Source: Halomonas sp. KG2
GTDB taxonomy: Bacteria > Pseudomonadota > Gammaproteobacteria > Pseudomonadales > Halomonadaceae
DNA: 64,000 bases
Assembly (NCBI GenBank): GCA_030440445.1
Contig: CP098528.1
Location: 2,852,001 to 2,916,000, forward strand
Reading direction: 5' to 3'
Positions within the stretch are counted from its first letter, which is position 1. Each line of letters begins with the position of its first letter. Positions 17,655 through 34,728 of the stretch are shown here, in pieces. Under the pieces are notes generated by a model. It was not told the DNA's origin. It saw nothing but the letters and a program-made list of their open reading frames with translations, and did not search any database. Both the position numbers and the translations under genes were made by a program.

Positions 17655-19025
17655 TTAAAGGGTTTGAAATACTTTGAAGCCTGAATGGGAAAGCTTGCGG
17701 TTGTACGGGGCTACCGACATTTTTGCAACTGTGGCCTTACGCGGCCCAAAGTGGAGCTTACCCAACAACTGCTCTACTTCCGAACGCTTACCTTTCAGCG
17801 CTGCTTGCAGCGTTCCATCTTGACGATAGCGCACCCACCCTTCAACGTTTAGTGTTACCGCTTCACGACGCAGCCACTTACGAAATCCTACCCCCTGCAC
17901 TTTACCTTCAATAGACACCAACCGCTGGCAACGGGCTGGAAGCGCTGCCGGGATAGGGACGATAGAAAACGTGCTTGATAACGCTTTCTGCTTTTCATAA
18001 GCCCGCCGCCACACCGCTGTAGCAACATCGCGAGGCTTACCGCGCATTGGGAAGTGGTGCCCACCTAGGCCGGGACAAGTATTAACTTCAATGACATACA
18101 CCTCGCCCTGCTCATTGCAGGGGTCAGATAACATTACATCTACTCCAGCCCAATCTAGTCCGGGCAAAGCCTTTACAGCTGCAACAGCAACGGCCTTAGC
18201 TCGTTCTGACACTAGATCGGTAGCATCAAAAGTATCGGCCCCCTTTGAAATATTGGCTTCCTGTCGCAAAACCACATGTTGCTCAGCATCGGGTACACTC
18301 TGCCAGTTTAAACCCTGCCGAGCCAAGTTCTGAAAAGCAATTTCATCCAGTGGGATCAAACTTGTCATCAAGCGTGGATTCATAGAGCGTAGGCTATTTT
18401 TTTCTTCAACTAAGGCTTCCACAGTGGAGATACCATCGCCGATAACATGCGCAGATTCCTTCCCCAACACAGCCAAAACATCATCGCCCAATACAAAAAA
18501 ACGATATTCGCTGCCATGCACTTGCTCTTCTACTAACGCACCGACGCTAGAGCGGGCTTGGTGAAAAGCTATATTGATTGAGGATTCATCATTTAAGTTA
18601 AGCGCCACTGCGCGCCCACGAGTGCCTCTAAGTGGCTTAACAACCACCGGTTTACCAAGCACCTTCCAAAAACGAACAGCCGACTCAGCATCCATTACTT
18701 GTCTGGCAGACGGTGTTGATACCGCTGCACGCTTAAGAAAACTGTGAGTGTATCCCTTGTGGGTTGCCAGTTTAGCACCCACCGCGGATTCGTTAGATCG
18801 CACATCCCAAAAAAATAGTTGGACACCATTATGTTGAATCAAAATCATTTGACGATTTAGCCAAACTACTTCAGCGCCTTCAAATGCCGCCGCTCTGGCT
18901 ATCAACCACGGCCCAAACAAATGATATTGGGGTACGCATCTAGCCATTTGGCTAAAGGGGTCTTCGTAATAATTTTGGTCATTTTTTAAAACAGGGTCAG
19001 GTAAAACTGCCGAATCAACTTGCAT
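17655..19025 (-). CDS. Cyanophycin-synthetase-like ATP-grasp ligase with C-terminal acylphosphatase-like domain
   Basis: This encodes 456 residues. Residues 75-350 are an ATP-grasp domain close in motif style to the central domain of cyanophycin synthetase: GKPVVVKPLRGTRGRAVAL (ATP-binding Lys and loop), EEQVHGSEYRFFVLGDDVLAVLGKESAHVIGDGISTVEALV, and YVIEVNTCPGLGGHHFP with the metal-binding Glu and Asn. Such enzymes form amide bonds through an acyl-phosphate. Residues 365-456 are an acylphosphatase fold: SIEGKVQGVGFRKWLRREA keeps the catalytic Arg, but GWVRY has Tyr where the catalytic Asn normally sits, so hydrolysis is probably lost. AGGAAG lies 5 bases before the ATG. It is the last gene of the amide-ligase block. 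A role attaching an amino acid to a glycan or peptide acceptor is inferred. Confidence 0.8.
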   Translation of the reverse strand: MQVDSAVLPDPVLKNDQNYYEDPFSQMARCVPQYHLFGPWLIARAAAFEGAEVVWLNRQMILIQHNGVQLFFWDVRSNESAVGAKLATHKGYTHSFLKRAAVSTPSARQVMDAESAVRFWKVLGKPVVVKPLRGTRGRAVALNLNDESSINIAFHQARSSVGALVEEQVHGSEYRFFVLGDDVLAVLGKESAHVIGDGISTVEALVEEKNSLRSMNPRLMTSLIPLDEIAFQNLARQGLNWQSVPDAEQHVVLRQEANISKGADTFDATDLVSERAKAVAVAAVKALPGLDWAGVDVMLSDPCNEQGEVYVIEVNTCPGLGGHHFPMRGKPRDVATAVWRRAYEKQKALSSTFSIVPIPAALPARCQRLVSIEGKVQGVGFRKWLRREAVTLNVEGWVRYRQDGTLQAALKGKRSEVEQLLGKLHFGPRKATVAKMSVAPYNRKLSHSGFKVFQTL

Positions 19026-19061
19026 AAAAACTTCCTACTAGAGCCAAGCAGGCTAAAGGCA

Positions 19062-19955
19062 TCACTCTAAACAACTCGCCAGTTCAAAAAATGCTCCAAG
19101 GTAAGTATCGGCCTGATCACTAAAGGCATGATAAGTCCCAGGCACCGCTGTTAACTCGCCTAACACCACACCTTGATAAGTTTCGTAAAGATCAATTCGG
19201 CAAAAAGGTACCGACAGACTAGCAGAAACTCTTTCTGCAACAGCTAACAAAGCCCGTGGGTTACGTGGGGGGAGCAGGGTAGCGTCTAAGGCACCATCGT
19301 ATTTACCAGTATCTATTGGGCACCAATCACGATCATACCAGCGATAACGCTGCCCGTGCTGCCCCCGTGCTACTTGCAATATCATTGCGGCATGCCCACG
19401 GAAAGCATAGAACTTAAAATCATCAACAGGGCGTAATAAACCAGAAGGCGGAAGCAGCAGTTCTTCTAATTGCCAATGATTGGGAAACTGATGCTCGCGC
19501 ATTTCAGCATAAAGATGTTCGAGAATCTCAACTAACCGTATTGGCCGGCGTAACTGCAAGCAGTTAAAAGTAATCGCGTCCATCCGTTTAAGCGAAAGCA
19601 CACCTCGGGAGCTATGCGCCTGACGAGGCTTGATTACACAAGCATCAATTCCCTCTAATGCATCACGCAGGTGTTGTAGGGGAAAGTCTTCACGCAACAG
19701 GCGCGCTGTGGCCACGCCCTTTGCCTGCATTTGCGCATTTACCCAAGCACGATCCACTGAAAGCCGCTCAAAGGAAGTCCCTTTTGGCTGAAGCGCTTCA
19801 CGCTGGTAACGCCGTACTAGCGCATCTAAACCAGCCCGGAACGAAGGTAAAGTGGATGGCGAGCCCTTACGAGCTGGATGGGAAGCCTGAACCCACGCCA
19901 GAGACGCAGGATTTGATATATAGGCATGAAAGGGTGGCATATCAGAAAGCAGCAT
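19062..19955 (-). CDS. TupA-like ATP-grasp protein
   Basis: This encodes 297 residues. Its core reads DACVIKPRQAHSSRGVLSL (ATP-binding Lys), WQLEELLLPPSGLLRPVDDFKFYAFRGHAAMILQVARG, RYRWYDRDWCPID and CRIDLYETYQGVVLGELTAVPG. The DDFKFYxFxGxxxxI...YDxDW signature is that of TupA-like ATP-grasp proteins, named after the teichuronopeptide gene of an alkaliphilic Bacillus, where a peptide polymer is attached to a uronic-acid polymer. Here it lies between two other ligase genes, 36 bp from one and 141 bp from the other, in a capsule region that also has a UDP-glucose dehydrogenase. The acidic motif ending in GELT differs from the usual E-x-N, so activity is likely but not certain. The ribosome site is weak. 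Confidence 0.75.
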   Translation of the reverse strand: MLLSDMPPFHAYISNPASLAWVQASHPARKGSPSTLPSFRAGLDALVRRYQREALQPKGTSFERLSVDRAWVNAQMQAKGVATARLLREDFPLQHLRDALEGIDACVIKPRQAHSSRGVLSLKRMDAITFNCLQLRRPIRLVEILEHLYAEMREHQFPNHWQLEELLLPPSGLLRPVDDFKFYAFRGHAAMILQVARGQHGQRYRWYDRDWCPIDTGKYDGALDATLLPPRNPRALLAVAERVSASLSVPFCRIDLYETYQGVVLGELTAVPGTYHAFSDQADTYLGAFFELASCLE

Positions 19956-20024
19956 TTTTACAGCCCAAAATAGTAGACAAGCAGCAACCCTAAGTCAGAT
20001 AGCGATATTACAGTGTTAAATAGT

Positions 20025-20082
20025 GGGCATACCAATTGCTATGCCTAAAGTCCTTTTAACTCATAAGAACAAAGGTATGCCC
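20025..20082 (-). other. Inverted repeat in the gap between the TupA-like and MurF-fusion genes
   Basis: Arms GGGCATACC (20025-20033) and GGTATGCCC (20074-20082) are perfect 9-mers with a 40-nt loop. The structure sits just past the stop of the carboxypeptidase-MurF fusion in a 141-bp gap. It might attenuate transcription into the TupA-like gene. There is no T-tract directly after it. Confidence 0.35.
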
Positions 20083-20096
20083 CATCAAGAGCTAAT

Positions 20097-22658
20097 CTAA
20101 ACTGAAACCGCTTTGTATCGTAAAAAATCTTTATCTTTTAACTCACGTGTCCAGTTTTCCGTAACCAGTTCAGTCACATCAGCTTTTTCCGGCCCCTGTC
20201 GCATTAACGTAAGCATCTCATCTAACGTCGTTTGCGCACAGAACAACACTGCTTCTACCGCGCCATCCGAACGGTTACGTACGAAACCTTGCACAGCACG
20301 AGCACGAGCTTCACGCTGGAGCCAAACTCTATAGCCAACGCCTTGAACCTTATTACCACTGACAACAACCCTGATTGGATGTGTAGGGAATTGTGATGTA
20401 TTTGCTGGCTCAACCTCGATCGACCACCGATAATCTTGCCGCACGCGTGCATCACGGGAACCTAGAATTGCCATTACCACAGTAACAAGGCTCATTCCAT
20501 TTGATCCCTTGACTGCGATCAGATCGCGGTCTTGCAGCAAGAAACGAATTTTTTTGGCCGCTGATTTCGCATCCTTAAATTTAATAGTTTCAATGTTTTG
20601 AACAGCATCGGCAACCATTGCAGCCTTAGGGCCGACAGTAATTAGCAGATCTATACCCGCTTCTTCTATTTTTGGAGCAAGTTCAAGATGATGACGGACC
20701 TCATCAGGCCCCAGCTCTAGCATGTCACCTAAAACTAGAATCTTTCGCTTTACTTTCTCTCTGAGCTTTAACAGCTCAAGAAGAGCAACAACTGAGTCGG
20801 GCGCAGCATTATAAGCATCATCAATGAGTTCGATAGTGCAGCCAGCTTTTGGTATAGCTCGAAAACGCTCAACTCGACGTGCGGTTGGGGTGTAAGCTGT
20901 CAGCCCTGCCAACGCTAATGAGCTACCACCGACCGCCAGCAAAACCCCTGCTACGAGAAGCGAATTCATAACAAAGTGTGCACCGGGCTGGCCAATTAAA
21001 TAATCTACACGTGTATCACCAACCATTATCGTAACTTCGGAGCAAGTGGGGCGAAGCTTAGCATCAAGCAGACGCACATCATCTGAGTCACGCTTGCCAC
21101 ATGAAATAATTCTTCCAACTCTCCCACTTTCTGATGCCCGCGCTACCATTTGCTCATAGCGAGCGTCACCGGATGGTAGAACAGCCGTTCCACCATGCGC
21201 TAGCTCGAAGAACATCTCGGTTTTTCCAATTAAGATAGAATCAGCACCACCTTCGGCATGATGACTCCCATGACTGAGGCCGATGCTGGTAATTACCGCC
21301 ACGTCAGGCTTAACCACAGCTGATTTACGTCTTACGGCACCTTGGTCCATCATTGCAATTTCAAGAACAGAATAGGCCGCATTTATGGGGAGGCTAGCCA
21401 CCGCCGCAAGGTTTGCATTTCCAGAATTGAGATTAGCGGTGGTGTGGTTAGTAGATCCACAGTATGAAAGTACAAGTGCGATCATGTCCTTTGTAGTAGT
21501 TTTACCCACACTTCCAGTGACACCGATCACCTTCCCTTTAAACTCTGAGCGTGCAAGTGTTGCAAGCTCGCGAAGCGCATGATCCAGGCGTGGAACTTCA
21601 ATTATCGGAAAGTCACCCTCAATATTGCCGGAAGACATAACAGCAACAGCCCCTCTCTCGACCGCTCGTTCAGCAAGAGCTTGTCTTCTACTTTTCGCGG
21701 CAGATATAGGAACATAAATGTCCCCAGGGTTAACGTTAACTGCGGATGTAATTATGCGGCTTACAAGAAGCTGGCCAGATTCGTTACCAATAATTTTTGC
21801 CCCAAGGAATTCTGCGATCCCTTCAACGGTACCTAACAACGGTCTAGTTTGAAGTCCCATCGTTTCCTCTTCCTCAAGATGCCTTACTGATGACACGCTG
21901 CTTTTTGGCGCAGCACTCAATACTTTAGAGTTTTCTTGCTGCAGTCTTTCCAAAGCAAAATCGATGGTCGTAACCATCGTATTGTCTCTCTCAGCCTTGT
22001 CCGCAGCATTTAATACAACGGCAAATACGGTTTTCCCATCTCTTTGAACCACTGTAGCCAGATTACGGCGTAAACCAGCGGTCGTGCCGGTTTTCATTCC
22101 GAGCACTCCAGAGACGTTAGACAGTAACTCGTTTGTGTTACGACGAGTTTTTCCATTAAAAACAAACGAGCCAATTGAGAAAAAACTGCGATACGCAGGA
22201 TAATCTTGCCACAGGCGCCTAGCCAATAGCGCCATGTCTCGCGCTGTCGTTGTACCTTTGCCTATACCCGAGGGGGTGGCGAAGTGTGTTGACTTCAACC
22301 CAAGCTTAGCGGCTTCTTTATTTAGTTGTGAGACAAAATCATCAGCACCGAAATGATGAGCAATCGTAACAGCTGCATCATTCGCTGAAGGCAAAATCAT
22401 GCCTAGCACTAAATCCGCTACCGAGACTACTTGCCCCTCTCTTAACCCCATATTCGTTTGCGGCACCCGCCCTGGCACTCGATTTACTACGGCAGCTTTA
22501 GGCACCGTTATCATCGTAGATAAAGGTAGTCTGCGAAAGGCCAAATAAAGCACCATCATCTTGGTCAGTGAGGCTGGGTTGAACGGTGTGTCAGCGTGCT
22601 CAGCCAACAGCACATTTCCCTCTTGATCCGTTACTAGGCGTGCGACTTCGTTTGTCAA
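20097..22658 (-). CDS. Triple fusion: S11 DD-carboxypeptidase-like + MurF-like ligase + acylphosphatase
   Basis: This encodes 853 residues from a TTG start with AGGA nine bases upstream. Residues 1-240 are a D,D-carboxypeptidase (PBP5/peptidase S11) with all three active-site motifs: SLTK (Ser30-Lys33), SAN (91-93) and KTG (189-191). There is no signal peptide although the family is normally periplasmic. Residues 265-740 are a Mur ligase closest to MurF: IGVTGSVGKTTTKDM (P-loop), TTANLNSGNANL, LEIAMMDQGAV, SIGLSHGSHH, IDDAYNAAPDSVVALLELL and ILVLGDMLELG. Residues 765-853 are an acylphosphatase with catalytic Arg (VQGVGYR) and Asn (GFVRN) both kept. The next upstream gene is a D-Ala-D-Ala ligase, 17 bp away. 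MurF normally adds D-Ala-D-Ala and PBP5 removes terminal D-Ala, so this chain could add and trim D-Ala on a non-murein acceptor (inference). Confidence 0.85.
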   Translation of the reverse strand: MTNEVARLVTDQEGNVLLAEHADTPFNPASLTKMMVLYLAFRRLPLSTMITVPKAAVVNRVPGRVPQTNMGLREGQVVSVADLVLGMILPSANDAAVTIAHHFGADDFVSQLNKEAAKLGLKSTHFATPSGIGKGTTTARDMALLARRLWQDYPAYRSFFSIGSFVFNGKTRRNTNELLSNVSGVLGMKTGTTAGLRRNLATVVQRDGKTVFAVVLNAADKAERDNTMVTTIDFALERLQQENSKVLSAAPKSSVSSVRHLEEEETMGLQTRPLLGTVEGIAEFLGAKIIGNESGQLLVSRIITSAVNVNPGDIYVPISAAKSRRQALAERAVERGAVAVMSSGNIEGDFPIIEVPRLDHALRELATLARSEFKGKVIGVTGSVGKTTTKDMIALVLSYCGSTNHTTANLNSGNANLAAVASLPINAAYSVLEIAMMDQGAVRRKSAVVKPDVAVITSIGLSHGSHHAEGGADSILIGKTEMFFELAHGGTAVLPSGDARYEQMVARASESGRVGRIISCGKRDSDDVRLLDAKLRPTCSEVTIMVGDTRVDYLIGQPGAHFVMNSLLVAGVLLAVGGSSLALAGLTAYTPTARRVERFRAIPKAGCTIELIDDAYNAAPDSVVALLELLKLREKVKRKILVLGDMLELGPDEVRHHLELAPKIEEAGIDLLITVGPKAAMVADAVQNIETIKFKDAKSAAKKIRFLLQDRDLIAVKGSNGMSLVTVVMAILGSRDARVRQDYRWSIEVEPANTSQFPTHPIRVVVSGNKVQGVGYRVWLQREARARAVQGFVRNRSDGAVEAVLFCAQTTLDEMLTLMRQGPEKADVTELVTENWTRELKDKDFLRYKAVSV

Positions 22659-22675
22659 AATAAGCTTTCCTAATG

Positions 22676-23590
22676 CTAGCGATTTAACGAGGCATCTTCG
22701 ATTAACCCTGCCACCAGTTGTGAAAAGGAAATTCCCCGCATCTGTGCAATTTCAGGCAGAAGAGAGGTTTGAGTCATGCCAGGCTGGGTATTCACCTCAA
22801 GCCAAATTAATTCATTACGTTCTGGGTCAAAGCGATAGTCTGACCGACTCGCGCCTCGGCAGCCAAGTGCACGGTGCGCAGCCAGCGACAAGTCAAGTAT
22901 GCGCTGCTCAACTTCTGGAGGTAATTCAGCTGGGCATATATGGCGAGACCCACCGGCGACATATTTGGATTCATAATCATAGAAATCTTGACCCTGAGTA
23001 AAGATTTCAGAGATACCAAGGGCACCATCATCCAGCACTGCGCAGGTTAACTCTCGACCAGGCACAAAGCGCTCAACCATTAGCTTTTCGCCAAAACGAG
23101 CAATATCGGGCGAAAGACTTGGGGCTTCGTCTCCCTCATATACGGCGGTTATCCCGAAAGATGAACCTTCAGCGATGGGCTTGACAATATAAGGCGGGGC
23201 CATGACATGGCCAGCCGAAATTTCCTCTGGCGTAGCTAAAACGTGTTCCGCCACTGGAATCCCATTGGCAGCAGCAACATGTTTGGCATTAACCTTATGC
23301 ATCGCTAACGCCGAAGCAAGCACACCTGAGTGGGTATAAGGAATGTGCAGCAGCTCTAGAAGCCCCTGAATTATGCCGTCTTCACCACCCGGCCCGTGCA
23401 GCGCATTGAAAACCTTATCAGGGCGGATCTGCATGAGACGCTCGGCAATATCATCTTGAACATCAACACGTTCGACAAGATAGCCAGCCTCTTCCAAGCC
23501 AAGTGCGCAAGCCTCTCCTGTCCTAAGGCTAACATCACGTTCGGAGGAAAGTCCGCCCATTAATACTGCGACCAAAGGTTTGCGTGTCAT
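22676..23590 (-). CDS. ddl: D-alanine--D-alanine ligase
   Basis: This encodes 304 residues, the normal DdlB length. Motifs are VAVLMGGLSSERDVSLRTG, NALHGPGGEDGIIQGLLELLHIPYTHSG, PYIVKPIAEGSSFGI (ATP-grasp loop), CRGASRSDYRFD and WLEVNTQPGMT with the metal-binding Glu and Asn. It makes D-Ala-D-Ala from two D-Ala with ATP in the cytoplasm. The usual chromosomal ddl lies in the division/cell-wall cluster. This copy sits inside a capsule-region ligase block, 17 bp before a MurF-like fusion, which suggests a dedicated supply of dipeptide. Whether it is a second copy cannot be seen from this window. It is the first gene of a sub-operon after a 325-bp gap. Confidence 0.93.
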   Translation of the reverse strand: MTRKPLVAVLMGGLSSERDVSLRTGEACALGLEEAGYLVERVDVQDDIAERLMQIRPDKVFNALHGPGGEDGIIQGLLELLHIPYTHSGVLASALAMHKVNAKHVAAANGIPVAEHVLATPEEISAGHVMAPPYIVKPIAEGSSFGITAVYEGDEAPSLSPDIARFGEKLMVERFVPGRELTCAVLDDGALGISEIFTQGQDFYDYESKYVAGGSRHICPAELPPEVEQRILDLSLAAHRALGCRGASRSDYRFDPERNELIWLEVNTQPGMTQTSLLPEIAQMRGISFSQLVAGLIEDASLNR

Positions 23591-23915
23591 ATTAAAGATA
23601 TCCTATAGTTAATTTCAGTACCGTTACAGTGGGTATTAGCATAACAGGCCAAGGCTTGAACCACTTACAGCACGGGCGATTCCCCCTTAACGGGGCCAAT
23701 CACTGCCATTAAAAAATATTCAGCTATATTGAATTTTATTAACAGTCCGGCCAGGGAGGCGAATGAGCATTTATTATTGAGAAACCGCAACATGTACCCG
23801 GCCGGAAGGAGCCTAAAACTTCCACTAACCTGTGCCAAATTTTTATTAAATTGTCAACTTCGACAAAGTCCGTGGAAAAACAGCAACTTGCCTACTATTA
23901 GCATAAACAGCCAAA
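23591..23915 (-). promoter_or_regulatory. 325-bp intergenic region upstream of ddl
   Basis: No gene is seen here. On the minus strand TTATGCTAATA occurs twice (about 23896-23906 and 23634-23644). It resembles a -10 core or an operator; the second copy lies about 45 bases before the ddl ATG. TTGACA occurs at 23857-23852 without a fitting -10. A CCGGCC-rich inverted pair (about 23745-23754 and 23798-23807) encloses some 45 nt and could form a leader structure. A promoter for ddl is expected in this stretch, but I cannot place it exactly. Confidence 0.35.
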
Positions 23916-24917
23916 TCAAATAGAGGCAGCCGCATGCTTCCATATTTGTTGTGCAATATTGCTTTGCTTCCCTTCGCCTGGGTAGTGATAGACTGCAATA
24001 TTAGGGTCGCATGAAACATCGAGTACATACGGCACAGCATCATTACCTTTTGAGCTAATCACCACATCAACACTGGCAACTTCTAACCCCGGAATGCTAG
24101 CTACCGCTTGTATTGCAATTTCTTCAAGCGCTGGCGTTAAATCGTCAGTAGCATCAACAAATTCTGCCCCTGCAGCCAATGCAAGGCTACTTCTTACTTC
24201 AAAGGAATCACCCTCAGACAAGATACTGTCAACGGTTAACCCGCGTTCTTGCATATCAGATTCAGTATTTCGTCCAAACCGGATCGGCTTGTTTCGGTAG
24301 CAAGGGTTAAGGTCACGGGCTTGGTTTTTTATTTCTATTAATTCTTGAATTGTAGAATTTCCATCACCGATCAGGGTAGCCGGTCGTCTGGATAGAGCCG
24401 CAACTACTTTATCGCCTACCACCATAACTCTATATACGGAGCCTTCGATATGCTCCTCAGTTAAAACAGATGAATTCGTCTCTAGATGTTTCTCTAACTC
24501 ACGCTCAAGACGCCTTTCTGAAGAAACCTTGCCAATATTAATATTTTTTGCACTTGCACTAGTCGACCATAGGCTTAAAGTGCCACCGAAAGCTTTTCTT
24601 GCTCGCTTTGCCGCATTCAAGCTTTTTACAATGCGAGCCTTGGGAACATTAACACCAGCATGCTTCAGCAGTTTCCTAAGCAACACTCTTCTATCAGTGA
24701 CTGAGTTAGCGGCATAGGAGTCAGCGCCTCTTACGTCATGAAAAAGGATTTTTTTTCCTGCTTTCTCGCACAGGAAAACATACTTAGAAATCCACGTTAC
24801 CGTAGCTTCATCCAATTCAGCTTCATAAGCTATTAACTGGGGACCGACACCGTATCTGCCCATCTTCTCAATGATGGCTTCAGATGAAATATCGAGCGAG
24901 CTAGCTTCAGTAAACAT
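23916..24917 (-). CDS. ATP-grasp paralogue with degenerate catalytic residues
   Basis: This encodes 333 residues. The overall layout matches the ATP-grasp core of the 17655-19025 protein (LLRKLLKHAGVNVPKARIV, TEEHIEGSVYRVMVVGDKVVAALSRRPATLIGDGNSTIQELI, GAEFVDATDD, IPGLEVASVDVVIS, YHYPGEGK). Two key sites differ: the Lys-containing VVVKPLRGTRG loop is replaced by LSLWSTSASAKN, and the metal-binding EVNTCPGLG is replaced by DVSCDPNIA. It also lacks the acylphosphatase tail. I infer a non-catalytic partner or a binding subunit rather than a working ligase. AAAGGGA lies five bases before the ATG. The gene ends at a 325-bp gap, so it closes its sub-operon. Confidence 0.75.
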   Translation of the reverse strand: MFTEASSLDISSEAIIEKMGRYGVGPQLIAYEAELDEATVTWISKYVFLCEKAGKKILFHDVRGADSYAANSVTDRRVLLRKLLKHAGVNVPKARIVKSLNAAKRARKAFGGTLSLWSTSASAKNINIGKVSSERRLERELEKHLETNSSVLTEEHIEGSVYRVMVVGDKVVAALSRRPATLIGDGNSTIQELIEIKNQARDLNPCYRNKPIRFGRNTESDMQERGLTVDSILSEGDSFEVRSSLALAAGAEFVDATDDLTPALEEIAIQAVASIPGLEVASVDVVISSKGNDAVPYVLDVSCDPNIAVYHYPGEGKQSNIAQQIWKHAAASI

Positions 24918-24931
24918 AAAAGTCCCTTTAG

Positions 24932-24979
24932 TTAAGGTTTAAGGTTTAAGGTTTAAAATTTAAGGCTTAAGCTTAAAAT
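24932..24979. repeat. Heptanucleotide repeat (TTAAGGT) filling an intergenic gap
   Basis: Three perfect TTAAGGT units (24932-24952) are followed by four decayed 7-mers up to the stop of the preceding gene. The array fills almost the whole 62-bp gap upstream of the degenerate ATP-grasp gene's ribosome site. Copy number could vary by slipped pairing and would change the distance between the upstream stop and the next ribosome site. Confidence 0.8.
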
Positions 24980-26194
24980 TCAAAAAACATCTATTGACAT
25001 TGGCCTGACTGAAACGCCATGACCACAAGATAACGAATTCAAGAAACTGCTAACTTCGCTAGTACCTCCTTTTAAAATAAAATCCATCTGGCCTTTAATG
25101 GCATCAGATGCTTGCCATTCCAGAACCAACCCTGAATTTTTAGTGCTATAGAATTTGTCAACTTCTTCTTTAAATTTATCACAGTCGACTAAGCCTTTAG
25201 CTTTACAAGGAGTCGTCACCGATCTATTGAAAAAAGCCATGTTTTTTTGCGCAGCAAATTTAACATAAGAAACCTCGTTTTCAACAATGCTACTAGCTAT
25301 TTTCTTAGCCAAACGTGCTGATGGGAAAAGAACATTATGAAGATGCAGCCTTTCACTCACCTCAACGATGCAGCATTGCTGCTCTGACACATCCCCAGCT
25401 GTATTGTCAACCACAATATCAATACATAGGGTACGTACTCCTGGTAGTGCATCCATAACTTTTTCGGCAACACGTTGGTATCTATGAGGCATTTTTAACA
25501 AATTGTAACCATCATATCCAGTATTTTCTGGCTTCGATAATGCACACACCACGCTACCATGAACAACTATTAATCTTACTTTGTTACCCGGCACATGCTG
25601 TTCTACTAGGAATCTGTGTTTTTCATTTTTTAATTCGATTCCATCCTCTGCAGTGACCGTAGGAAGCAGACCCGTTATTGCATACGCTGAGTTTTTGTAA
25701 TCAGCTTGCGGTGAAAACATTCTTTCATCCACCACGCGAAGGCGCTTAATTACAGCATCAAATTCTTGGGCGTTGTTAACAACAACCCCCCTTTCTCCTA
25801 ACTCCTGCGCCATCGCCTCTTTGATAACGACGGGGTAACCAATTCTGCGAATATACTTCACTACTTCTAGCTTTGACTCATAAGAAAAAGTGGCTCCTTC
25901 AGGCACCTTCATTCCATGCTTTTGAAGGAGCGCCCTCCTTACTCGCCGATCTGAAAGAAAAGTAACGCCTGCTAGCGAGGAACTTCCTGGCACACCATGA
26001 GTAAAGCCTACGGAGCTGATAGGCCCTGATGGTAAATATCCCACAACCATTTGTCTTGGTAGCAGCTGCAATGGCAGCCTTATTTTAAGTAACGCTTCCG
26101 TTATTAACACACCATCTATGAGCTCAGATGGAAAGTCAGCATAGGTACCCTCATATCTTTTTTCGGGTATTAATTTTTCATATAAATGTTTCAT
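24980..26194 (-). CDS. ATP-grasp ligase with degenerate acylphosphatase-like C-terminus
   Basis: This encodes 404 residues. The ATP-grasp region (about 70-310) includes RRALLQKHGMKVPEGATF, YPVVIKEAMAQELGERGVVV (candidate ATP-binding Lys), FLVEQHVPGNKVRLIVVHGSVVCALSK, LPGVRTLCIDIVVD and CIVEVSERLHLHN. The metal-binding E-x-N is altered to EVS, so catalysis is doubtful. Residues 325-404 follow the acylphosphatase pattern at low similarity (AKGLVDCDKFKEEVDKFY..., MDFILKGGTSEVSSFLNSLSCGHGVSV). There Asp/Lys replace the catalytic Arg loop, and the Asn is not recognisable. The start overlaps the upstream stop by 4 bp, so it is co-translated with the 631-residue ligase. Confidence 0.7.
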   Translation of the reverse strand: MKHLYEKLIPEKRYEGTYADFPSELIDGVLITEALLKIRLPLQLLPRQMVVGYLPSGPISSVGFTHGVPGSSSLAGVTFLSDRRVRRALLQKHGMKVPEGATFSYESKLEVVKYIRRIGYPVVIKEAMAQELGERGVVVNNAQEFDAVIKRLRVVDERMFSPQADYKNSAYAITGLLPTVTAEDGIELKNEKHRFLVEQHVPGNKVRLIVVHGSVVCALSKPENTGYDGYNLLKMPHRYQRVAEKVMDALPGVRTLCIDIVVDNTAGDVSEQQCCIVEVSERLHLHNVLFPSARLAKKIASSIVENEVSYVKFAAQKNMAFFNRSVTTPCKAKGLVDCDKFKEEVDKFYSTKNSGLVLEWQASDAIKGQMDFILKGGTSEVSSFLNSLSCGHGVSVRPMSIDVF

Positions 26195-28086
26195 AACTTA
26201 CCACCCAACAATCTGAAACCCACTGGTTTCTCGCCTTCATAGTGAATTGTATTTACCGAAGTAGGCTTCGCATTAGCAGGACCTAAAACTAACGCGGTTA
26301 CCAGGTAGGATGCTGGCAGCAAATCACCGTAAATCCGAACCTCTACTGTTCTGCGGTCTACTTGTCGTATCCAGCCGGATAGACCAAATTTCTTTGCTCT
26401 TTCCATAACCCATTCGACATATCCCGTCTTGGCTAAAGTACCTTTTACGGTTGAATGTAGATGAAGTGTATCGAGTGGCGCAGTCAAAAAACTCAACCCT
26501 TCTTGATTTGCTGCACTGATTAATAGCTTCTTTGCGACTTCTTTAGGCTCACCAAAAAGAGGATATTCGCAATTACCAATCGCGGCATGAGCATTTAGCT
26601 CACAGATACCACTATCTTGCTCGCTTAATGGCTTTGTGTGATCCTCTAATAAGAAATCAACGCCGCAGTAGTTTAGACCTGGAATCACCTTAACCGATTC
26701 CACACAAGCCTTTTTTATATCTTCATGTAGCTCGTCATAGACGCTGATACTATCCCCGCCTTGGGAAATATTACTGGAAGAAGAAAGCCTTACCAACTCA
26801 CCTGCTGCGGGAACACTCTCTAAAGAGAGACCCAGCCTATCAAGTTGGAACATCATAGTGTCATTGAACTTTATCGGCCTCCTCCAAAGATGGGGGTTAC
26901 TTTTTCGGAACTGATTTTTAAGAAGCACAAGTTCAGCGATACTATTTTCTCCATCGCCTACTACACATGCAGGCAACCTCATGATTGCCGCAATCACTTT
27001 GCCATCTAATACCAGTATTCGGTAATCTTCACCGCTAACATGTTTTTCAATGATAACATCTTGCTTACCCAGCTGTGAGGACTGACTTATATTCAGAGCA
27101 TCCCTCAGTTCTTTAGCTGTTCGCAAGTTTGCAAAAACACCTATCCCACCAACACCTGCCACGGGTTTACATACAACCGGGTAACCAATCAGTTCTGCGT
27201 ACTGCTCAGCCATCCATAAATCATCTTTTTTAAACAGTCTACCTTCTGGCACGGGCAAACCTAGGCGTTGCAAACATGCTCGCGTTGCCTCTTTATGGCT
27301 AGTTAAAGCATGAGACATACTGCTTGAAACTATGGTTCTACTCCACTTGAACGGGAGTTTTTTATTACTCTCATCATAGATGACATAGGAGCCTTTCGTG
27401 AACCTTAGGCTATTCAGACCTAAGCTAAGCGCATGCCTTTCTACTAAGTGCCCTTTTGTTCCGTTTATACCTAATGGTTTAGCAAGCTCAACATCTGAAT
27501 AATGCTGCGCCGATTTCCCAAGCATATCAGGTACATTTAACTCAGGGAGTTTCCAGAAAAACAGTATATTTTCAAGCAAGTCGCTAAACCGACTATTTGG
27601 CCAAGCTACATTGCTGAAGGTCTGCACATCATCGTGCGCTGTAGAACTCCGGCTTTTTAAAGCATGGCGTATCAAAGAACAAATAGCATATACAATCTTA
27701 TCTTTATATTTTTTAAGAAACTTATCTAGCTCAGGACTACCATCTCGATTTAATTTTCTGAATATCTTCTTATCTTTTATTGCTTCTATGGACCACGCTT
27801 CAATCAATGCTTCTAACTCATCACCTTCATTTAACGAGAATGAGTGATTAACCAGACGCTTAATTACCTCCTTTAACAAGTCCTGGGCTCTTGAAGGGTA
27901 TCCCTGGCCTGATAAGGATGGCATTTGAAACTCTACCGCTGCGGTTTCTATGCCACTGTTACCTTCTATTTCTATACTAACCCACGCATTTGCGGCGTAG
28001 CGGGGGTCTGCATCCTTCCATATCCCGCCCTGTACTGGTGCTTTTAAACCACCAGCACTTACTTTGCTTACCTTAATACTCATCAA
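26191..28086 (-). CDS. Cyanophycin-synthetase-like ATP-grasp ligase with inactive acylphosphatase-like tail
   Basis: This encodes 631 residues. Residues 1-215 form an N-terminal region similar in position to that of cyanophycin synthetase (NAWVSIEIEGNSGIETAAVEFQ). Residues 255-520 are an ATP-grasp domain: RACLQRLGLPVPEGRLF, YPVVCKPVAGVGGIGVFANL, VIIEKHVSGEDYRILVLDGKVIAAIMRLPACVVGDGENSIAELV, GVDFLLED and GICELNAHAAIGNCEYPLFG. ATP Lys, Glu and Asn are all kept, so this looks catalytic. Residues 540-631 match the acylphosphatase fold, but the Arg loop reads LAKTGYVEW and the Asn position reads GWIRQ. Both catalytic residues are lost, leaving a probable binding domain. It is likely an amino-acid/peptide ligase acting on an unknown acceptor. 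Confidence 0.78.
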   Translation of the reverse strand: MMSIKVSKVSAGGLKAPVQGGIWKDADPRYAANAWVSIEIEGNSGIETAAVEFQMPSLSGQGYPSRAQDLLKEVIKRLVNHSFSLNEGDELEALIEAWSIEAIKDKKIFRKLNRDGSPELDKFLKKYKDKIVYAICSLIRHALKSRSSTAHDDVQTFSNVAWPNSRFSDLLENILFFWKLPELNVPDMLGKSAQHYSDVELAKPLGINGTKGHLVERHALSLGLNSLRFTKGSYVIYDESNKKLPFKWSRTIVSSSMSHALTSHKEATRACLQRLGLPVPEGRLFKKDDLWMAEQYAELIGYPVVCKPVAGVGGIGVFANLRTAKELRDALNISQSSQLGKQDVIIEKHVSGEDYRILVLDGKVIAAIMRLPACVVGDGENSIAELVLLKNQFRKSNPHLWRRPIKFNDTMMFQLDRLGLSLESVPAAGELVRLSSSSNISQGGDSISVYDELHEDIKKACVESVKVIPGLNYCGVDFLLEDHTKPLSEQDSGICELNAHAAIGNCEYPLFGEPKEVAKKLLISAANQEGLSFLTAPLDTLHLHSTVKGTLAKTGYVEWVMERAKKFGLSGWIRQVDRRTVEVRIYGDLLPASYLVTALVLGPANAKPTSVNTIHYEGEKPVGFRLLGGKL

Positions 28087-28163
28087 ATACGCCCTGTATT
28101 GTCATCAAACACTAGTATCAGAAATTTTATTTCCTGTTTACAAATAGCCCCAAGCGACATGAG

Positions 28164-29339
28164 CTAAACAGCCAATCCTTCAGCCAGAAGAAATCGTCTA
28201 TAAGTGGCATCGCCAAGTAACGGCTCATGCATCTGAAAAAGACGCACTTGACTGTAGCTGTTGCCTTCTAGCACTACAAAGTCGTGGTCACGTAGAATCA
28301 GATCGAAACCGCAATACTTTAGATACGGTAGCTTGCTGAACAGGGCCTTAAGTTTGTACTTGTGTTCTTGCCAGTTGGGAATACTAGCCCCTGTTAGTGT
28401 CTCGCCCGTATCTGGGTGGGCATGCCACACTTGACCACTAAAACGGCCCGCCGCAGCTACAGCATTACCAAGTCTTCCCGTTTCCAAATCAATTTCAATG
28501 CTTAGTCCACCCCGCGAAAAATTATCGATAGGGTACGATTCGCTATTACCTACACGCAGTACGGCTCGCACTATGTATGGCTCACCGCTTTGCACGTCGC
28601 GCATTATGAGCACACGCACCGTATTAACCGTAAGAGGATAAAGACGGCGTGAGAATTCACCTTGCTGTACGTATTCATTAATAATAAATGGAACCCGTTG
28701 ACTGGTGAATAATTCACTTAATGCGTCGCTTCGCAAGCTAAAGCGCGGGTTAATTGCGTCGTTGGTTTCCACCACGGCATGGCGTTTATCTATACGAATA
28801 AAGTAAACACTACCACCGCCACCGCCACCTAAGGGCTTGGCCACTAACATTCGCGACTCAGATTCGCCGCGCGCTATCTGCAGCCATAGATCGGTGTGTG
28901 GGATTACACGGCCTTGCCGGCATACCGCGACAGTATGTGGCACATTACAATATTGGCCGAACACTTGGTCAAACAATATTTTATTATTAAAAACAACACT
29001 ATAATGACCATTGACTAGCCGGGTAAGCCAGCGTTGGACATCACTTAGGTAACTGTCGATATTGTCGCGGTTGAGCCCATATAGCCTTGCCTTTTCAGGC
29101 AAAAAGCCGCGCTCGTAAAAGAATTGCGCCTCTTCTTCGCTGAGACTCGGCAAGTCTGAGTCGGCGTGAAAATCCAACGTAAAGCGTTTTAATAGCGCAA
29201 GCTGCTCTGTTTCCTGCAGGCTATCCATCAAGCGTTTATGATGATCTTTCGATAGCGCATCTGCCACTACCGCCTCCTGGCTGCCTGTGAGGTTCTTTGA
29301 AGAGTGCCTCATTTCGTGGTAGGTGGTATCAAGTTTCAT
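28164..29339 (-). CDS. Sugar-transfer-associated ATP-grasp protein (apparently intact member of a triplet)
   Basis: This encodes 391 residues. The layout is that of the ATP-grasp family often found with polysaccharide transferases: FFYERGFLPEKARLYGLNRDNIDSYLSDVQ, then MLVAKPLGGGGGGSVYFI (ATP loop with Lys), INEYVQQGEFSRRLYPLTVNTVRVLIMRD, RGGLSIEIDLETGRLG, HPDTGETLTGASIPNW, YCGFDLILRDHDFVVLEGNSYSQVRLFQMHEPLL. Of the three tandem paralogues only this one keeps the glycine-rich loop and the EGN metal-binding motif. It overlaps the upstream gene by 4 bp. It probably attaches an amino acid or similar group to a sugar or glycan (family-level inference; substrate unknown). Confidence 0.8.
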   Translation of the reverse strand: MKLDTTYHEMRHSSKNLTGSQEAVVADALSKDHHKRLMDSLQETEQLALLKRFTLDFHADSDLPSLSEEEAQFFYERGFLPEKARLYGLNRDNIDSYLSDVQRWLTRLVNGHYSVVFNNKILFDQVFGQYCNVPHTVAVCRQGRVIPHTDLWLQIARGESESRMLVAKPLGGGGGGSVYFIRIDKRHAVVETNDAINPRFSLRSDALSELFTSQRVPFIINEYVQQGEFSRRLYPLTVNTVRVLIMRDVQSGEPYIVRAVLRVGNSESYPIDNFSRGGLSIEIDLETGRLGNAVAAAGRFSGQVWHAHPDTGETLTGASIPNWQEHKYKLKALFSKLPYLKYCGFDLILRDHDFVVLEGNSYSQVRLFQMHEPLLGDATYRRFLLAEGLAV

Positions 29340-30556
29340 ATTCCAAACTCACGCATAAAGTCGATGGCTGTTTGGTTTTGCATTAATGGGCCGTGTACCT
29401 GAAAGTCTTCCACCGTAGGGGTGGCTGCAAGGCGAATCAACATTGGAGTCGGCGTCGAAATATCAATATCTACCTGGATAAAAGAGTAAAGCGACTCTTT
29501 TTGAATGGGATAAATAATGTCTTTATTAGCTTGTTGCCAAGCAGCTTTGTAGCGGTATTTTTCCCAAGGAACCGGTCTTCTAGGGCCCACGACAGTGCCG
29601 CTAGTATTAAACCGTGCAACGCTCCGGGTGCGGCCACTACCGGGCGATAACTGCATGCTAAGCGCCATACCCACGGTGGCAGCCGTCGCTTTTTTAGTAG
29701 CAACCACCGAGAGCGGCACCAGTCCAGCACCTGCTGGATCCATGATTAAAATAACTTTAAGAACCGGCCCTGTAGGCGGTTCCTGCTTGGTTAGCATAGG
29801 GTTAGCAATCATGGGTATGCGCTGGTTATAGAGCTGCCACTGTAGCTCTGTATTTTCCAGCAACGGTTGCATTGGCCCATTGGTTTGGGCTAGCAGGCTC
29901 GCTTGTAGATCGCTGATATAAGCATCTATCCGCGTGTCTGGCAGCTTATAAAGGCGTTTGCGGTTGGGCAGAAAACCACGGTTATGTAGGTATTCTGCGT
30001 CCTGCTGGGCAAGACTTCCTTGCTGTGCTCTAAACGAGTGGCTAAATTCTCGCCAAATTTGTACGCCTTCACTATGATTCAGCCTTTTTATTCGACCAAC
30101 GTGACTTAAATCTGCACTTCTGCGTGTTTTATAAATAACACGATGGTTTTTTGCGCCTCCCTGTTTGTGCATCATGCTCTGTACACCGCCCAGAAAAGGC
30201 GTTGGCCTGCGGTCTTCTTCACGGCCGAAACGTAAATAGTGCAGTAACGGGTTCATGGAAGCGTTACGTACGTCGTCGTACTCTTCCAGATACCATTGAG
30301 TATGAAACCCTGGACCAGGGTTGTGACCTTGCTGTATTCCGCGAGACAGATAATAACCTAACGGATCTTTTACGGCGCTTGGCTCATTGAGTAGTTCTGG
30401 ATAGTTGGCTAGGTACCATTCTGAATGGAAGTAGCCGCTCTGCTCTATTTCTGCCCGTATCTTGGCGTCTTGGTAACCTAGCCACTTTCTGAGACGCCAT
30501 TCGAACGTCTTCAATAGCGTTGGCATAAATTGCGTTGGCACGAGTTGCGTTGGCAT
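29336..30556 (-). CDS. Sugar-transfer ATP-grasp paralogue, catalytic loops lost, with N-terminal YPxx/YxDV module
   Basis: This encodes 406 residues. Residues 40-130 carry two copies of the polysaccharide-transferase accessory motif (FHSEWYLANYPELLNEP...YYLSRGIQQGHNPGPGF, then QWYLEEYDDVRNASMNPLLHYLRFGREEDRRPTPF), also seen in the transferases at 14067-17593. Residues 165-406 align with the intact neighbour (AEYLHNRGFLPNRKRLYKLPDTRIDAYISDLQASL at the start, DFQVHGPLMQNQ at the end). The AKPLGGGGGG loop and the EGN motif are gone. It is probably a non-catalytic binding or scaffold partner. The ribosome site AGGTGAG lies within the 3' end of the upstream gene. The first codons are a tandem repeat. 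Confidence 0.72.
   Translation of the reverse strand: MPTQLVPTQFMPTLLKTFEWRLRKWLGYQDAKIRAEIEQSGYFHSEWYLANYPELLNEPSAVKDPLGYYLSRGIQQGHNPGPGFHTQWYLEEYDDVRNASMNPLLHYLRFGREEDRRPTPFLGGVQSMMHKQGGAKNHRVIYKTRRSADLSHVGRIKRLNHSEGVQIWREFSHSFRAQQGSLAQQDAEYLHNRGFLPNRKRLYKLPDTRIDAYISDLQASLLAQTNGPMQPLLENTELQWQLYNQRIPMIANPMLTKQEPPTGPVLKVILIMDPAGAGLVPLSVVATKKATAATVGMALSMQLSPGSGRTRSVARFNTSGTVVGPRRPVPWEKYRYKAAWQQANKDIIYPIQKESLYSFIQVDIDISTPTPMLIRLAATPTVEDFQVHGPLMQNQTAIDFMREFGI
30517..30556 (-). repeat. 15-bp repeat spanning alternative start codons
   Basis: GCGTTGGCA begins at 30517, 30532 and 30547 (15-bp period). On the coding strand each copy starts with a possible initiation codon (ATG, GTG, ATG) followed by CCAACGC, so the protein begins with repeated MPTxx units. 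Copy changes would add or remove start sites in frame. Confidence 0.75.
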
Positions 30557-30558
30557 AG

Positions 30559-31614
30559 CTAGCCGCTCACCTTGTTCAAGTGATTGGTAATGCCTGGGTG
30601 CTCAAGTAGCGGTTGATGCATTTGATGTGCTGCCATGACGTCCGTGTTGGTTCCGAAAAACGATACGCCTGTTTCGGTAACCACAAAGCTTAGACTGCAA
30701 ACGTGCAAATATGATGATTCATCAAAGAAGCGCAGCAGGGCTTTTCTAATAGCAGCCCAGTTGGGTAGGTGCTCACCGACTAGGGTTTGGGCGGTGTCAG
30801 GGTGTTGCAAATAGGTGTCTATAACGCCCTGCTGGTTAAGCCCGCGGCATGCTGTAATTAAGCCAGTTTGTGGATTGATACTGGCACTAAGCGCGCCTTC
30901 TTCTACCCGCATTGGTGTGTTTGATGAGGTTGCCATGCTGCCCACCGTTAAGCTAGCAGCGGCTATTTCAGGCAGTCCTTCATCGGGTTCACGTACCAGT
31001 AATACGTGCAGCAGATGGTAGCCATCAGGGCTTATTTTAGTTAACCAACTATGTTGAACCGGCGCTGTGGAAATGATCAACGCCTCGTTGTGCTCTTGTG
31101 CTTCTTCAACTAACTGATTAACAAATGCTTTTTGAAACGTTTGCGAGTCACTGCTCTCTACCAGCTTTATTTTGCGGTACTGCGCGTGGTTATCCGGTGC
31201 TAGTGAATGCACGTGCACTTCGCTAGGCGCTGTATTTCCGTTCGTCCACCACGGTGGTTCTAACCACTGAGCACCGTTTTTAGAAATCATGCAGATGTTT
31301 TTTTCAACGCCGAAGTAATTGGCCAACACATGGCCACATAGCACTCGATCGGAGAGGACGGTTTGGTACTTTTGATTAATTGATTGCAACCTAAGAGACT
31401 GGTAATCACTCAAGTAGGCATTAAGGTCGTTTTCAGTTAAATCGTACAGGCCTGCTCGGCTTCTGTAGAACCCGCTGTGAAATAGCTGGCGGCTTTGCTC
31501 TTCTTTTATGGTTGGCGCGTTATCTTCCCAGAACCTGAGCGTAAAGTCTTTCCAGGCTTGCAGGGAGGCGATGTCGTCGGCGTGCGCGATGCTTTCTTTA
31601 TGTGTTGAGAACAT
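30559..31614 (-). CDS. Sugar-transfer ATP-grasp paralogue, probably non-catalytic
   Basis: This encodes 351 residues. It shares the N-terminal signature with its two neighbours (SRQLFHSGFYRSRAGLYDLTENDLNAYLSDYQSLRL) and the C-terminal layout (HPDTAQTLVGEHLPNWAAIRKALLRFF...CSLSFVVTETGVSFFGTNTDVMAAHQMHQPLLEHPG). The ATP-binding Lys and glycine loop are not present, and EGN is replaced by GTN. It is the first of the three paralogues to be translated and lies two bases before the next gene, so the three are almost certainly coexpressed and may form one complex. Confidence 0.7.
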   Translation of the reverse strand: MFSTHKESIAHADDIASLQAWKDFTLRFWEDNAPTIKEEQSRQLFHSGFYRSRAGLYDLTENDLNAYLSDYQSLRLQSINQKYQTVLSDRVLCGHVLANYFGVEKNICMISKNGAQWLEPPWWTNGNTAPSEVHVHSLAPDNHAQYRKIKLVESSDSQTFQKAFVNQLVEEAQEHNEALIISTAPVQHSWLTKISPDGYHLLHVLLVREPDEGLPEIAAASLTVGSMATSSNTPMRVEEGALSASINPQTGLITACRGLNQQGVIDTYLQHPDTAQTLVGEHLPNWAAIRKALLRFFDESSYLHVCSLSFVVTETGVSFFGTNTDVMAAHQMHQPLLEHPGITNHLNKVSG

Positions 31615-31640: not shown

Positions 31641-32522
31641 CTATTCGTCGTCGCTGGCTTCTTGAAGCGATTTCAACACCGCCAGATCTTTGCGCAATAT
31701 TTTGAGCTTCTCTTCCATATCGCCTTTTAGCTCTGCTAACTCTTCCGGCGACACGCTATTATTGCCTTTCGCTGCTAGATAAAGGGCTTTTGCTTCTTTG
31801 TGTATTTTCCTTGCTGCTCTGACATCTTGACGGGTTTTTTTAAGCTTTTCTGCTTCATGTATACCAAATGCCTTATGGTAGGCATCAATCGCATCGTCGA
31901 TATCATCAAACCAAGTAGCTTCGCCTTTATTGATAAAAATGCCTGCCTGGCAAAGCTCTCTGAGTATGCCTTCGCTATGCGAGACCATAATAAGACTGGC
32001 CTTGCCGGTTTTTTCCCGAAAGGCAGCTTTTGCTTTGGCTTTAAAGTTTTTATCACCCACTGCCGTGGCTTCATCAGAAATGTAGACGTCGAAATCAAAC
32101 GCAAGCGATAGGCCAAACGAGATACGCGAGCGCATCCCTGAGGAGAAGGTTCTGACAGGTTCATCGAAGGCAGTGCCTATTTCCGCGAAGTCTTCTACAT
32201 ATTTGATGACTCGCTTTACATCTTCGCTAGAACTACCGTGAACCCGGGCAACAAACTTGACGTTTTGCCGGGCTGTCATGTTTTTTTGCATGCCGCCTGA
32301 AAGACCGACTGGCCAAGAAACCTTGGTGTGGCGAATCACTTCGCCTCTTTCGGGCTTATCCATACCGGCAATTAAGCGTAGTAACGTTGATTTGCCTGCA
32401 CCGTTCGCCCCTATCAGACCCACGCTCACCTTGGGGGGAATGGTAAGGTTGATATTTTTCAATACCCAGTCGCTACCGTGGTGGTTGTGGTAGCGCTTGT
32501 AGAGGTTACGAATTTCGATCAT
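31641..32522 (-). CDS. Capsule/O-antigen ABC exporter ATPase (KpsT/Wzt type) with C-terminal coiled coil
   Basis: This encodes 293 residues. Walker A is GANGAGKST (near residue 38), the signature is TFSSGMRSRISFG, Walker B is FDVYISDEATAVGD, and the switch His lies in MVSHSE. The family length for KpsT is about 220. The extra 70 residues (EAEKLKKTRQDVRAARKIHKEAK...LKGDMEEKLKILRKDLAVLKSL) look like a charged coiled coil. Together with the KpsM-like permease at 41479-42288 it should drive export of a finished, lipid-linked polysaccharide across the inner membrane. It is unusual that the ATPase gene lies about 9 kb from the permease. Directly downstream come the ATP-grasp ligase genes, tying the exporter to the modification block. 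Confidence 0.9.
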   Translation of the reverse strand: MIEIRNLYKRYHNHHGSDWVLKNINLTIPPKVSVGLIGANGAGKSTLLRLIAGMDKPERGEVIRHTKVSWPVGLSGGMQKNMTARQNVKFVARVHGSSSEDVKRVIKYVEDFAEIGTAFDEPVRTFSSGMRSRISFGLSLAFDFDVYISDEATAVGDKNFKAKAKAAFREKTGKASLIMVSHSEGILRELCQAGIFINKGEATWFDDIDDAIDAYHKAFGIHEAEKLKKTRQDVRAARKIHKEAKALYLAAKGNNSVSPEELAELKGDMEEKLKILRKDLAVLKSLQEASDDE

Positions 32523-33074: not shown

Positions 33075-33121
33075 TAAACATCCTTTAGCCATTGCCGAGT
33101 TTGTTTAGCCAATCTTGGCTT

Positions 33122-34024: not shown

Positions 34025-34040
34025 CCATTAACCTTCTGTC

Positions 34041-34702: not shown

Positions 34703-34728
34703 AATCCATTGTGGTTCTGCTAGTTAGG

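Follow-up and report, generated by a model that had tools for sequence, protein, structure and literature searches.

The window analysed here is a stretch of 64,000 nucleotides, positions 2852001-2916000 of contig 1 in the 4.57-Mb genome of Halomonas sp. KG2. Between 17655 and 31614 it contains a block of ten open reading frames (ORFs), all on the minus strand and separated by intergenic gaps of -4 to 325 bases, which are numbered g1 (17655) to g10 (30559); g8, g9 and g10 are also called ST8, ST9 and ST10. Comparison with related genomes showed that the block is an exchangeable cassette in a fixed capsule-type locus, with conserved pseudoenzymes and repeated fusions to acylphosphatase (ACP). 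The block proteins were assigned to families with Pfam and NCBIfam models and their cut-offs, S11 denoting a PBP-type peptidase domain. A first-pass annotation of the window had proposed ten genes of these families, and both the position of every ORF and the family make-up were borne out, the gene at 29336 by profile-profile comparison.

17655..19025, minus: g1, cyanophycin-type ATP-grasp ligase fused to ACP (Pfam/NCBIfam)
19062..19955, minus: g2, TupA-like ATP-grasp, predicted sugar-carboxylate amidoligase (PF14305, conservation, precedent of Cj1438)
20097..22658, minus: g3, S11 (PBP-type) domain, MurF ligase and ACP (Pfam/NCBIfam, residues)
22676..23590, minus: g4, D-Ala-D-Ala ligase (Ddl), the genome's second copy (Pfam/NCBIfam)
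23916..24917, minus: g5, probable cyanophycin-type ATP-grasp pseudoenzyme (model match and residue loss)
24980..26194, minus: g6, degenerate ATP-grasp with degenerate ACP, marker gene of the locus (alignment, profile comparison)
26191..28086, minus: g7, ATP-grasp ligase with 240 N-terminal residues and an ACP domain (Pfam, alignment)
28164..29339, minus: g8 (ST8), sugar-transfer-associated ATP-grasp, PF14397 (Pfam)
29336..30556, minus: g9 (ST9), probable ST8-family pseudo-ATP-grasp bearing a repeat at its N-terminus (profile comparison, BLAST)
30559..31614, minus: g10 (ST10), probable pseudo-ATP-grasp of the ST8 family (ATPgrasp_ST PF14397, profile comparison)

The g2 protein belongs to the TupA-like ATP-grasp family (79.4 bits against PF14305, cut-off 25) and g4 scored 379 bits against the Ddl model (cut-off 243). 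Cyanophycin-type ATP-grasp models were matched by g5, g6 and g7, by g6 weakly, and the ACP match of g7 is also weak. The matches of g1, g5 and g7 to models of the cyanophycin synthetase CphA cover the ATP-grasp part alone and lie far below the cut-offs; g1 and g7 scored 216.7 and 203.2 bits against TIGR02068 (cut-off 850). A cyanophycin storage polymer was rejected as the product because no full-length CphA is encoded in the block. The CapA-type family PF09587 had no match among the ten block proteins, which thus do not make up the CapBCA set of poly-gamma-glutamate synthesis. Both g8 and g10 match ATPgrasp_ST PF14397. No Pfam family was matched by g9; profile-profile comparison tied g9 to the g8 family with a probability of 98.5% and g10 to g8 with 99.9%, unrelated controls giving 0.1% and 0.4%. 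No family was found for residues 1-240 of g7 by Pfam or profile comparison, and an enolase-type domain was rejected there at a probability of only 9.8%.

Matches to the Ddl model (E<=0.001) occur at 13 places in the genome, five of them inside the 14-kb block and spread over four genes, a density that exceeds chance. The sole Mur ligase of the block is g3, with MurF as the best-scoring model. The housekeeping Ddl, which scores higher than g4, lies together with four Mur-ligase hits at 2.62-2.63 Mb. Housekeeping murein genes were accordingly rejected as the identity of the block, its Ddl and MurF being second copies.

Intact and degenerate enzymes

The state of the ATP-grasp and ACP domains was judged by their established catalytic residues. 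Fifty-six ATP-grasp domains from ten loci (the nine TupA loci described below and one further locus, G041) were aligned with three CphA controls. Both g1 and g7 retain the lysine that binds ATP and the Asp, Glu and Asn that bind metal. In g5, Lys is replaced by Trp, Glu by Asp and Asn by Ser, and its counterparts in genomes G012 and G021 are equally degenerate. The glycine loop of g6 is broken in all nine loci and its Asn is lost in eight, with G021 as the exception. The Gly-rich loop and metal-site motif are intact in g8; both are gone from g9 and g10, in the window and in three relatives of each. Of the cyanophycin-type domains in the nine loci, 39 of 45 appear intact, with between 2 and 7 in each locus; a G021 domain whose column is unclear was scored as not intact. 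The pattern of residue loss suggests that g5, g6, g9 and g10 are probably pseudoenzymes maintained across species. The earlier view that all ten genes relate to the formation of amide or ester bonds is an overcount, because these four have lost catalytic residues.

The three domains of g3 appear intact: the S11 domain keeps its SxxK, SAN and KTG motifs (SLTK, SAND, KTG), the Mur P-loop is complete (GVTGSVGKTTTK) and the ACP domain has both catalytic residues, Arg and Asn. The gene starts with TTG, 17 bases past ddl; for at least 20 codons upstream of it the frame has no stop, and no ATG, GTG or TTG either. Since the S11 domain is not preceded by a hydrophobic leader, it is probably cytoplasmic. 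In the ACP domain of g1, the catalytic Arg is present and the Asn is replaced by Tyr, that of g7 has no catalytic residues, and the C-terminal end of g6 resembles a decayed ACP (profile comparison 77%, E 2e-5). Across the ten loci, 13 of 22 ACP domains keep both residues in an alignment judged by eye.

An AlphaFold2 model of ST9 was of modest quality, with a mean predicted local distance difference test score of 69 and a predicted template-modelling (TM) score of 0.56. Its 50 listed matches in the PDB are ATP-grasp-type enzymes as far as their titles show, and they are weak, with one at E<=0.001 and query-normalised TM-scores of 0.13-0.26 among the matches listed. Residues 21-130 of ST9 consist of a repeat of the type '..YL..Y.DV...NPL.HYL..G...R.P', as in glycosyltransferases, and this N-terminal repeat is common to two flanking glycosyltransferases (BLAST E 5e-12 and 2e-5). 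The family has 52 more genomes with matches to the repeat, and plasmid polysaccharide genes match it as well. The repeat could possibly be a docking module.

A fixed frame with variable cargo

A family sample of 275 genomes was searched separately with TupA, ST9 and g6 queries. The TupA query matched 19 genomes at E<=1e-10, nine at 592-624 bits and ten at no more than 77 bits. The ST9 query matched 61 genomes at E<=1e-15, nine at or near full length; in the other 52 the match does not extend beyond position 163 of 393 and mostly covers the repeat. The g6 query matched nine genomes. High-scoring TupA, full-length ST9 and g6 identify the same nine genomes, namely G000 (the window), G012, G021, G004, G068, G129, G188, G198 and G233, so that the co-occurrence expected from the first reading was found. 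Because the query alignments were partly built from these loci and the queried genes are neighbours, this agreement reflects inheritance as a block and not independent events. Furthermore, the nine include two closely related pairs, G000/G012 (94-95% DNA identity) and G198/G233 (97-98%).

The locus is lineage-restricted. No g6 was found among 390 sampled genomes of the order, apart from the genome of the window. Among 5.8 billion proteins ST9 had 30 matches, 25 of which span more than half its length, and the seven that carry an organism name are all from Halomonas. Where close homologues of the window's proteins are named, they come from Halomonas or Vreelandella, and G004 and G068 were placed in the same genus as the window genome. 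In plasmid records, g7 had one match (limit E 1e-30; 32% identity over 53%); ST9 had 80, none covering 80% of the query, and the five listed match residues 22-152 alone. A class-wide search for the ATP-grasp/ACP fusion matched 51 of 369 genomes at E<=1e-25; with at most five candidates scored per genome, the ACP part was spanned by only two matches, both from the genome of the window. Such a fusion is present in the Microbulbifer protein P0142. Five of the ten genomes with weaker TupA matches were examined (L060-L062, G172, G261), and each has a TupA gene adjoining a GT2 glycosyltransferase gene; one of the two TupA-like genes of G261 has no recognised GT2 neighbour.

Domains of the nine loci were assigned by Pfam for part of them and otherwise by phmmer with domains of the window and its relatives, some gene ends coming from a simple ORF caller. 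The order ST9-ST8, g7-type ATP-grasp/ACP gene, g6, variable part, TupA, GT2 is the same in all nine, with an enolase-type gene preceding the g7-type gene in four. The GT2 gene follows TupA directly in G021 and G004 and one gene further on in the other seven, where the intervening gene encodes an ATP-grasp of g1 type or, in G129, an enolase-ATP-grasp. ST10 was called in seven loci, G004 being cut by the contig end and G188 unclear. The variable cargo is as follows.

G000: g5, Ddl, S11-MurF-ACP
G012: as G000, with the S11 part of the MurF gene shortened, plus MurF-enolase-ACP and a separate S11
G021: two enolase-type/ATP-grasp genes (a transposase gene interrupts one of them), ACP-PrpD, four more ATP-grasp genes, the g5 type among them
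G004: enolase, CapA-ATP-grasp, 1386-aa double ATP-grasp-ACP-PrpD, enolase-ATP-grasp
G068: ATP-grasps and CapA
G233 and G198: enolase, ATP-grasp-CapA-Mur, double ATP-grasp-ACP, one ATP-grasp
G188: enolase, ATP-grasp-CapA-ATP-grasp, further ATP-grasps
G129: ATP-grasps and enolase-ATP-grasp

A CapA-type domain occurs in five loci, in two by Pfam and in three solely by phmmer matches of 28-32 bits. Transposase genes or remnants (HTH_38 and rve by Pfam), which we take to be IS30-like, lie in the cassettes of G021, G012, G233 and G198; none were found in the cassettes of the other five loci. The G012 locus is about 5 kb longer than that of G000, and the extra part is bounded by an S11 repeat and contains a transposase remnant.

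The cassette is set among polysaccharide genes. As the first-pass annotation had it, a KpsT-type ATPase, rml and ugd lie on one side in the window and glycosyltransferases on the other.

8251..15608, minus: further glycosyltransferases of the frame (GT4, GT92/AlgX-like, GT2, glycosyltransferase)
15605..17593, minus: GT2 glycosyltransferase, which in 9/9 loci follows TupA immediately or with one gene between
31641..32522, minus: ABC exporter ATPase, KpsT/Wzt type
32526..36995, minus: rmlC, rmlA, rmlD, rmlB, dTDP-rhamnose synthesis
37061..38230, minus: ugd, UDP-glucose 6-dehydrogenase
40378..44148, minus: KpsE-, KpsM- and KpsD-like export proteins (KpsE by position and shape)

An export set of ABC ATPase, ABC2 permease and Poly_export/SLBB protein is present beside the glycosyltransferases. 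The KpsM-like protein scored 122 bits against NF050053, below the 300-bit cut-off, the KpsT-type ATPase matches Wzt/TagH-type models below cut-off, and no Pfam family was found above cut-off for the KpsE-like protein, so that a Kps (group 2-3) capsule locus is a candidate assignment. KpsT was found in seven of the nine loci, and eight have export or sugar genes at their ST end. Polysaccharide genes flank the cassette on both sides in eight loci and on the glycosyltransferase side in all nine; the G004 contig begins at ST9.

Proposed function and alternatives

It appears somewhat probable that the locus makes an exported capsule-type polysaccharide, with an amino acid or a short peptide joined through an amide bond to a sugar that has a carboxyl group. 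Mur and ATP-grasp ligases convert a carboxylate to an acyl phosphate and then couple an amine, and in murein the first carboxylate belongs to a sugar acid. The closest precedent is Cj1438 of Campylobacter jejuni, where a C-terminal TupA-like domain amidates capsular glucuronic acid, necessarily before the next sugar is added (PMC11800379; this and the other articles are cited from extracts). As here, a TupA-like ATP-grasp and a GT2 belong to a locus for an exported polysaccharide; they are fused in Cj1438 and adjacent or one gene apart in the nine loci. TupA lies within one gene of GT2 in all nine, and the simplest reading is that a peptide is grown on the sugar carboxyl. Unlike the single ligase and single amine of C. 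jejuni, the present loci have a variable set of ATP-grasp, Mur, Ddl, S11 and ACP domains and conserved pseudoenzymes.

From the observed gene content, domain families, residue states, co-inheritance and variability, we infer the following chemical steps, substrates, D-residue and attachment to sugar. GT2 would add an acidic sugar to the growing chain, and TupA would turn its carboxylate into an acyl phosphate and couple the first amine. The g7 and g1 ligases, and perhaps ST8, would activate each new carboxyl end in turn and add residues, so that the cargo would decide the peptide sequence. In this strain, Ddl would make D-Ala-D-Ala, which the MurF domain would add as at the end of the murein stem peptide, and the cytoplasmic S11 domain may trim or transfer that end. 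The ACP domains may clear or bind stray acyl phosphates. The dead paralogues g5, g6, ST9 and ST10 would serve as scaffold or docking subunits, and ST9 could hold the ligases at the glycosyltransferase complex through the repeat that it shares with glycosyltransferases. The Kps-type machinery would export the product.

Several observations weigh against this proposal. The case for editing in this strain is weakened by the dead ACP of g7 and the Asn-less ACP of g1. Two of the nine loci, one closely related pair, contain Ddl and S11, and four loci, two such pairs, contain a Mur domain, so that a murein-like end is not general. The TupA profile matched no solved structure (best E 0.33), and its residues were consequently judged from conservation alone. 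No ligase substrate could be predicted with confidence. Moreover, Ugd of the window type (E<=1e-60) is present in six of the nine genomes, in G004 and G129 on a different contig of a draft assembly; it was not found at this threshold in the other three, where several members represent the broad NDP-sugar dehydrogenase family, and the acidic sugar may therefore not be glucuronic acid. Ugd was dropped as a nucleotide-sugar clue, and with it the earlier notion that UDP-glucuronate is a constant part of the system. None of the tests made gave a link with haloalkaliphily, which the first-pass annotation had raised as a possible context. The companion claim, of amino acids or peptides on capsular uronic acids, keeps its amide precedent in Cj1438 but not a constant uronic acid; an acidic sugar in the polymer is possible, judging from the genes. 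Beyond the glycosyltransferases of the window (2180-6966) lie genes for an HMGL-like aldolase/synthase, a CMP-Kdo-synthetase-like protein and a HAD/capsule-synthesis protein. This trio also follows in G004 and G068, and it suggests that the polymer holds an unusual activated acid.

Alternatively, the ligases might each serve a different position of the repeat unit and attach a single amino acid or amine there, without building a peptide. Uronic-acid amides with amino acids are known in surface glycans (PMC10609480), the capsule of Microbulbifer carries a D-Ala amide on a uronic acid (PMC3210612), and these published amides, like that of C. jejuni, are of single amino acids or amines. However, the chemistry of Ddl and MurF puts a dipeptide on a pre-existing peptide carboxyl. 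The intact cyanophycin-type ATP-grasps of a single locus number up to seven, TupA and ST8 not counted, and single-site attachment seems unlikely.

In another alternative, the glycan would carry a polyglutamate- or cyanophycin-like polyamide chain in place of a defined short peptide, resembling teichuronopeptide or haloarchaeal glutaminylglycan. Teichuronopeptide consists of poly-gamma-glutamate and polyglucuronate (PMC8153356). The tupA gene of Bacillus halodurans shares its name with the Pfam family, and a peptide and an acidic polysaccharide are combined there as proposed here; teichuronopeptide is a Gram-positive wall polymer, and the extract of PMC8153356 does not mention a MurF/Ddl/acylphosphatase block. 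Cyanophycin-type ATP-grasps are present, and five loci have CapA-type domains as the CapB/CapA capsule does. The window block, however, has no CapA-type domain, its Mur domain is MurF-like and its export appears to be of the ABC/Kps type. CphA belongs to the same ATP-grasp subfamily (7lgm, E 7e-36), but the block match ends at the ATP-grasp part, to which an ACP is fused instead, and none of the ten window genes encodes a full-length cyanophycin synthetase. The two to seven intact ligase domains of each locus are more in keeping with ordered addition than with a single polymerase, making such a chain improbable.

A free peptide or small metabolite, such as an osmolyte, antimetabolite or signalling molecule, made by the ligases with the capsule location incidental, would suit the many soluble products of ATP-grasp and Mur ligases and a cargo that varies as in a metabolite cluster, but has a low probability given the flanking polysaccharide genes described above, the resemblance or membership of TupA, ST8 and ST9 to polysaccharide-type ATP-grasps and the ST9 repeat common with glycosyltransferases.

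For an amide-bearing capsule polymer, murein (MurC-F, Ddl) and archaeal pseudomurein (Mur alpha-delta and ATP-grasp OG0001014) offer the comparison of ligases that extend a peptide stepwise. Mur and ATP-grasp families also occur together in pseudomurein (PMC11915815), compared here by description only. Unlike both, the block has no MraY/MurG-type gene among its annotated genes, and its MurF is a second, diverged copy fused to S11 and ACP. Among the matches listed in a search of the open-access literature, no description of this locus was found, and a pairing of cyanophycin synthetase with an acylphosphatase domain was not found either. The amidoligase survey of Iyer et al. 2009 may describe parts of such a system.

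A more specific version of the proposal, which is tentative, takes the fixed frame (ST10-ST9-ST8, g7-g6, TupA and glycosyltransferases) to hold exchangeable acyl-phosphate ligases and residue-inverting modules. The dead paralogues would be scaffold, the ACP fusions would edit or bind acyl phosphate, and each species would make a different peptide with D-residues, using neither ribosome nor nonribosomal peptide synthetase (NRPS). The inverting modules would be the enolase-type epimerase-like, CapA/MslH-like and PrpD-like domains and Ddl-MurF-S11. Ddl makes D-Ala-D-Ala, and relatives of PrpD include an epimerase. The best models for the enolase-type domains were muconate cycloisomerase and the N-acetyl-D-Glu racemase DgcA, with weaker scores for L-Ala-D/L-Glu epimerase models, all far below cut-off. 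In the five fused enolase-type domains the metal ligands are retained; of the three lysine positions, the first has Arg and the other two are conserved. The best model for the CapA-type protein of G068 was the lasso-peptide epimerase MslH (49.8 bits, cut-off 700), which has a calcineurin-like fold (PMC10406935). However, CapA relatives have other functions and the scores are low, and the enolase-type proteins that stand alone in G004, G233, G198 and G188 no longer have their metal ligands and were rejected as epimerases. D-residues are thus a lead, suggested by domain families.

If true, the proposal would describe a route besides ribosomes and NRPSs for writing defined peptides on a surface polymer, with species-specific variation like that of capsule serotypes and a candidate enzyme for each step. 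That ACP is fused repeatedly to enzymes forming acyl phosphates raises a testable idea of editing, and the conservation of dead ATP-grasps points to a machine of several subunits. For Halomonas sp. TGOS-10, the exopolymer is reported as an amino-acid-rich 'glycoprotein' that gave many peptide signals after protease digestion (PMC11132480); should TGOS-10 carry the locus, the nature of its exopolymer could become testable.

Further ligase genes and minor observations

Other ligase systems were noted. In G021, a 1786-aa protein (L038:9858-15218) with a YheC/D-type domain, two further ATP-grasp domains and an ACP is encoded on the same contig as the capsule locus, far away, and represents another ligase-ACP system. 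On contig 27 of G041 (L043/L044), an 819-aa double ATP-grasp-ACP protein is encoded near a polysaccharide lyase, a rhamnosyltransferase, ugd and similar glycosyltransferases, with no TupA found within the DNA examined. The genome of the window encodes a further Mur-ligase protein of 1075 aa (L157:6191-9418), in which Pfam finds two C-terminal Mur domains (726-1058) and nothing in the first 700 residues.

A scan of the window for promoters and terminators was uninformative, giving 21 promoter-like and 27 terminator-like sites against shuffle means of 25.9 and 21.5. Between rmlA and rmlD, a gap of about 1 kb (34025-35037) holds no ORF of at least 100 aa, which is unusual in so compact a row of genes. 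A gene of metallo-beta-lactamase/beta-CASP nuclease type (38879-40321) lies amid the export genes, as it also does in G012, G021 and G068.

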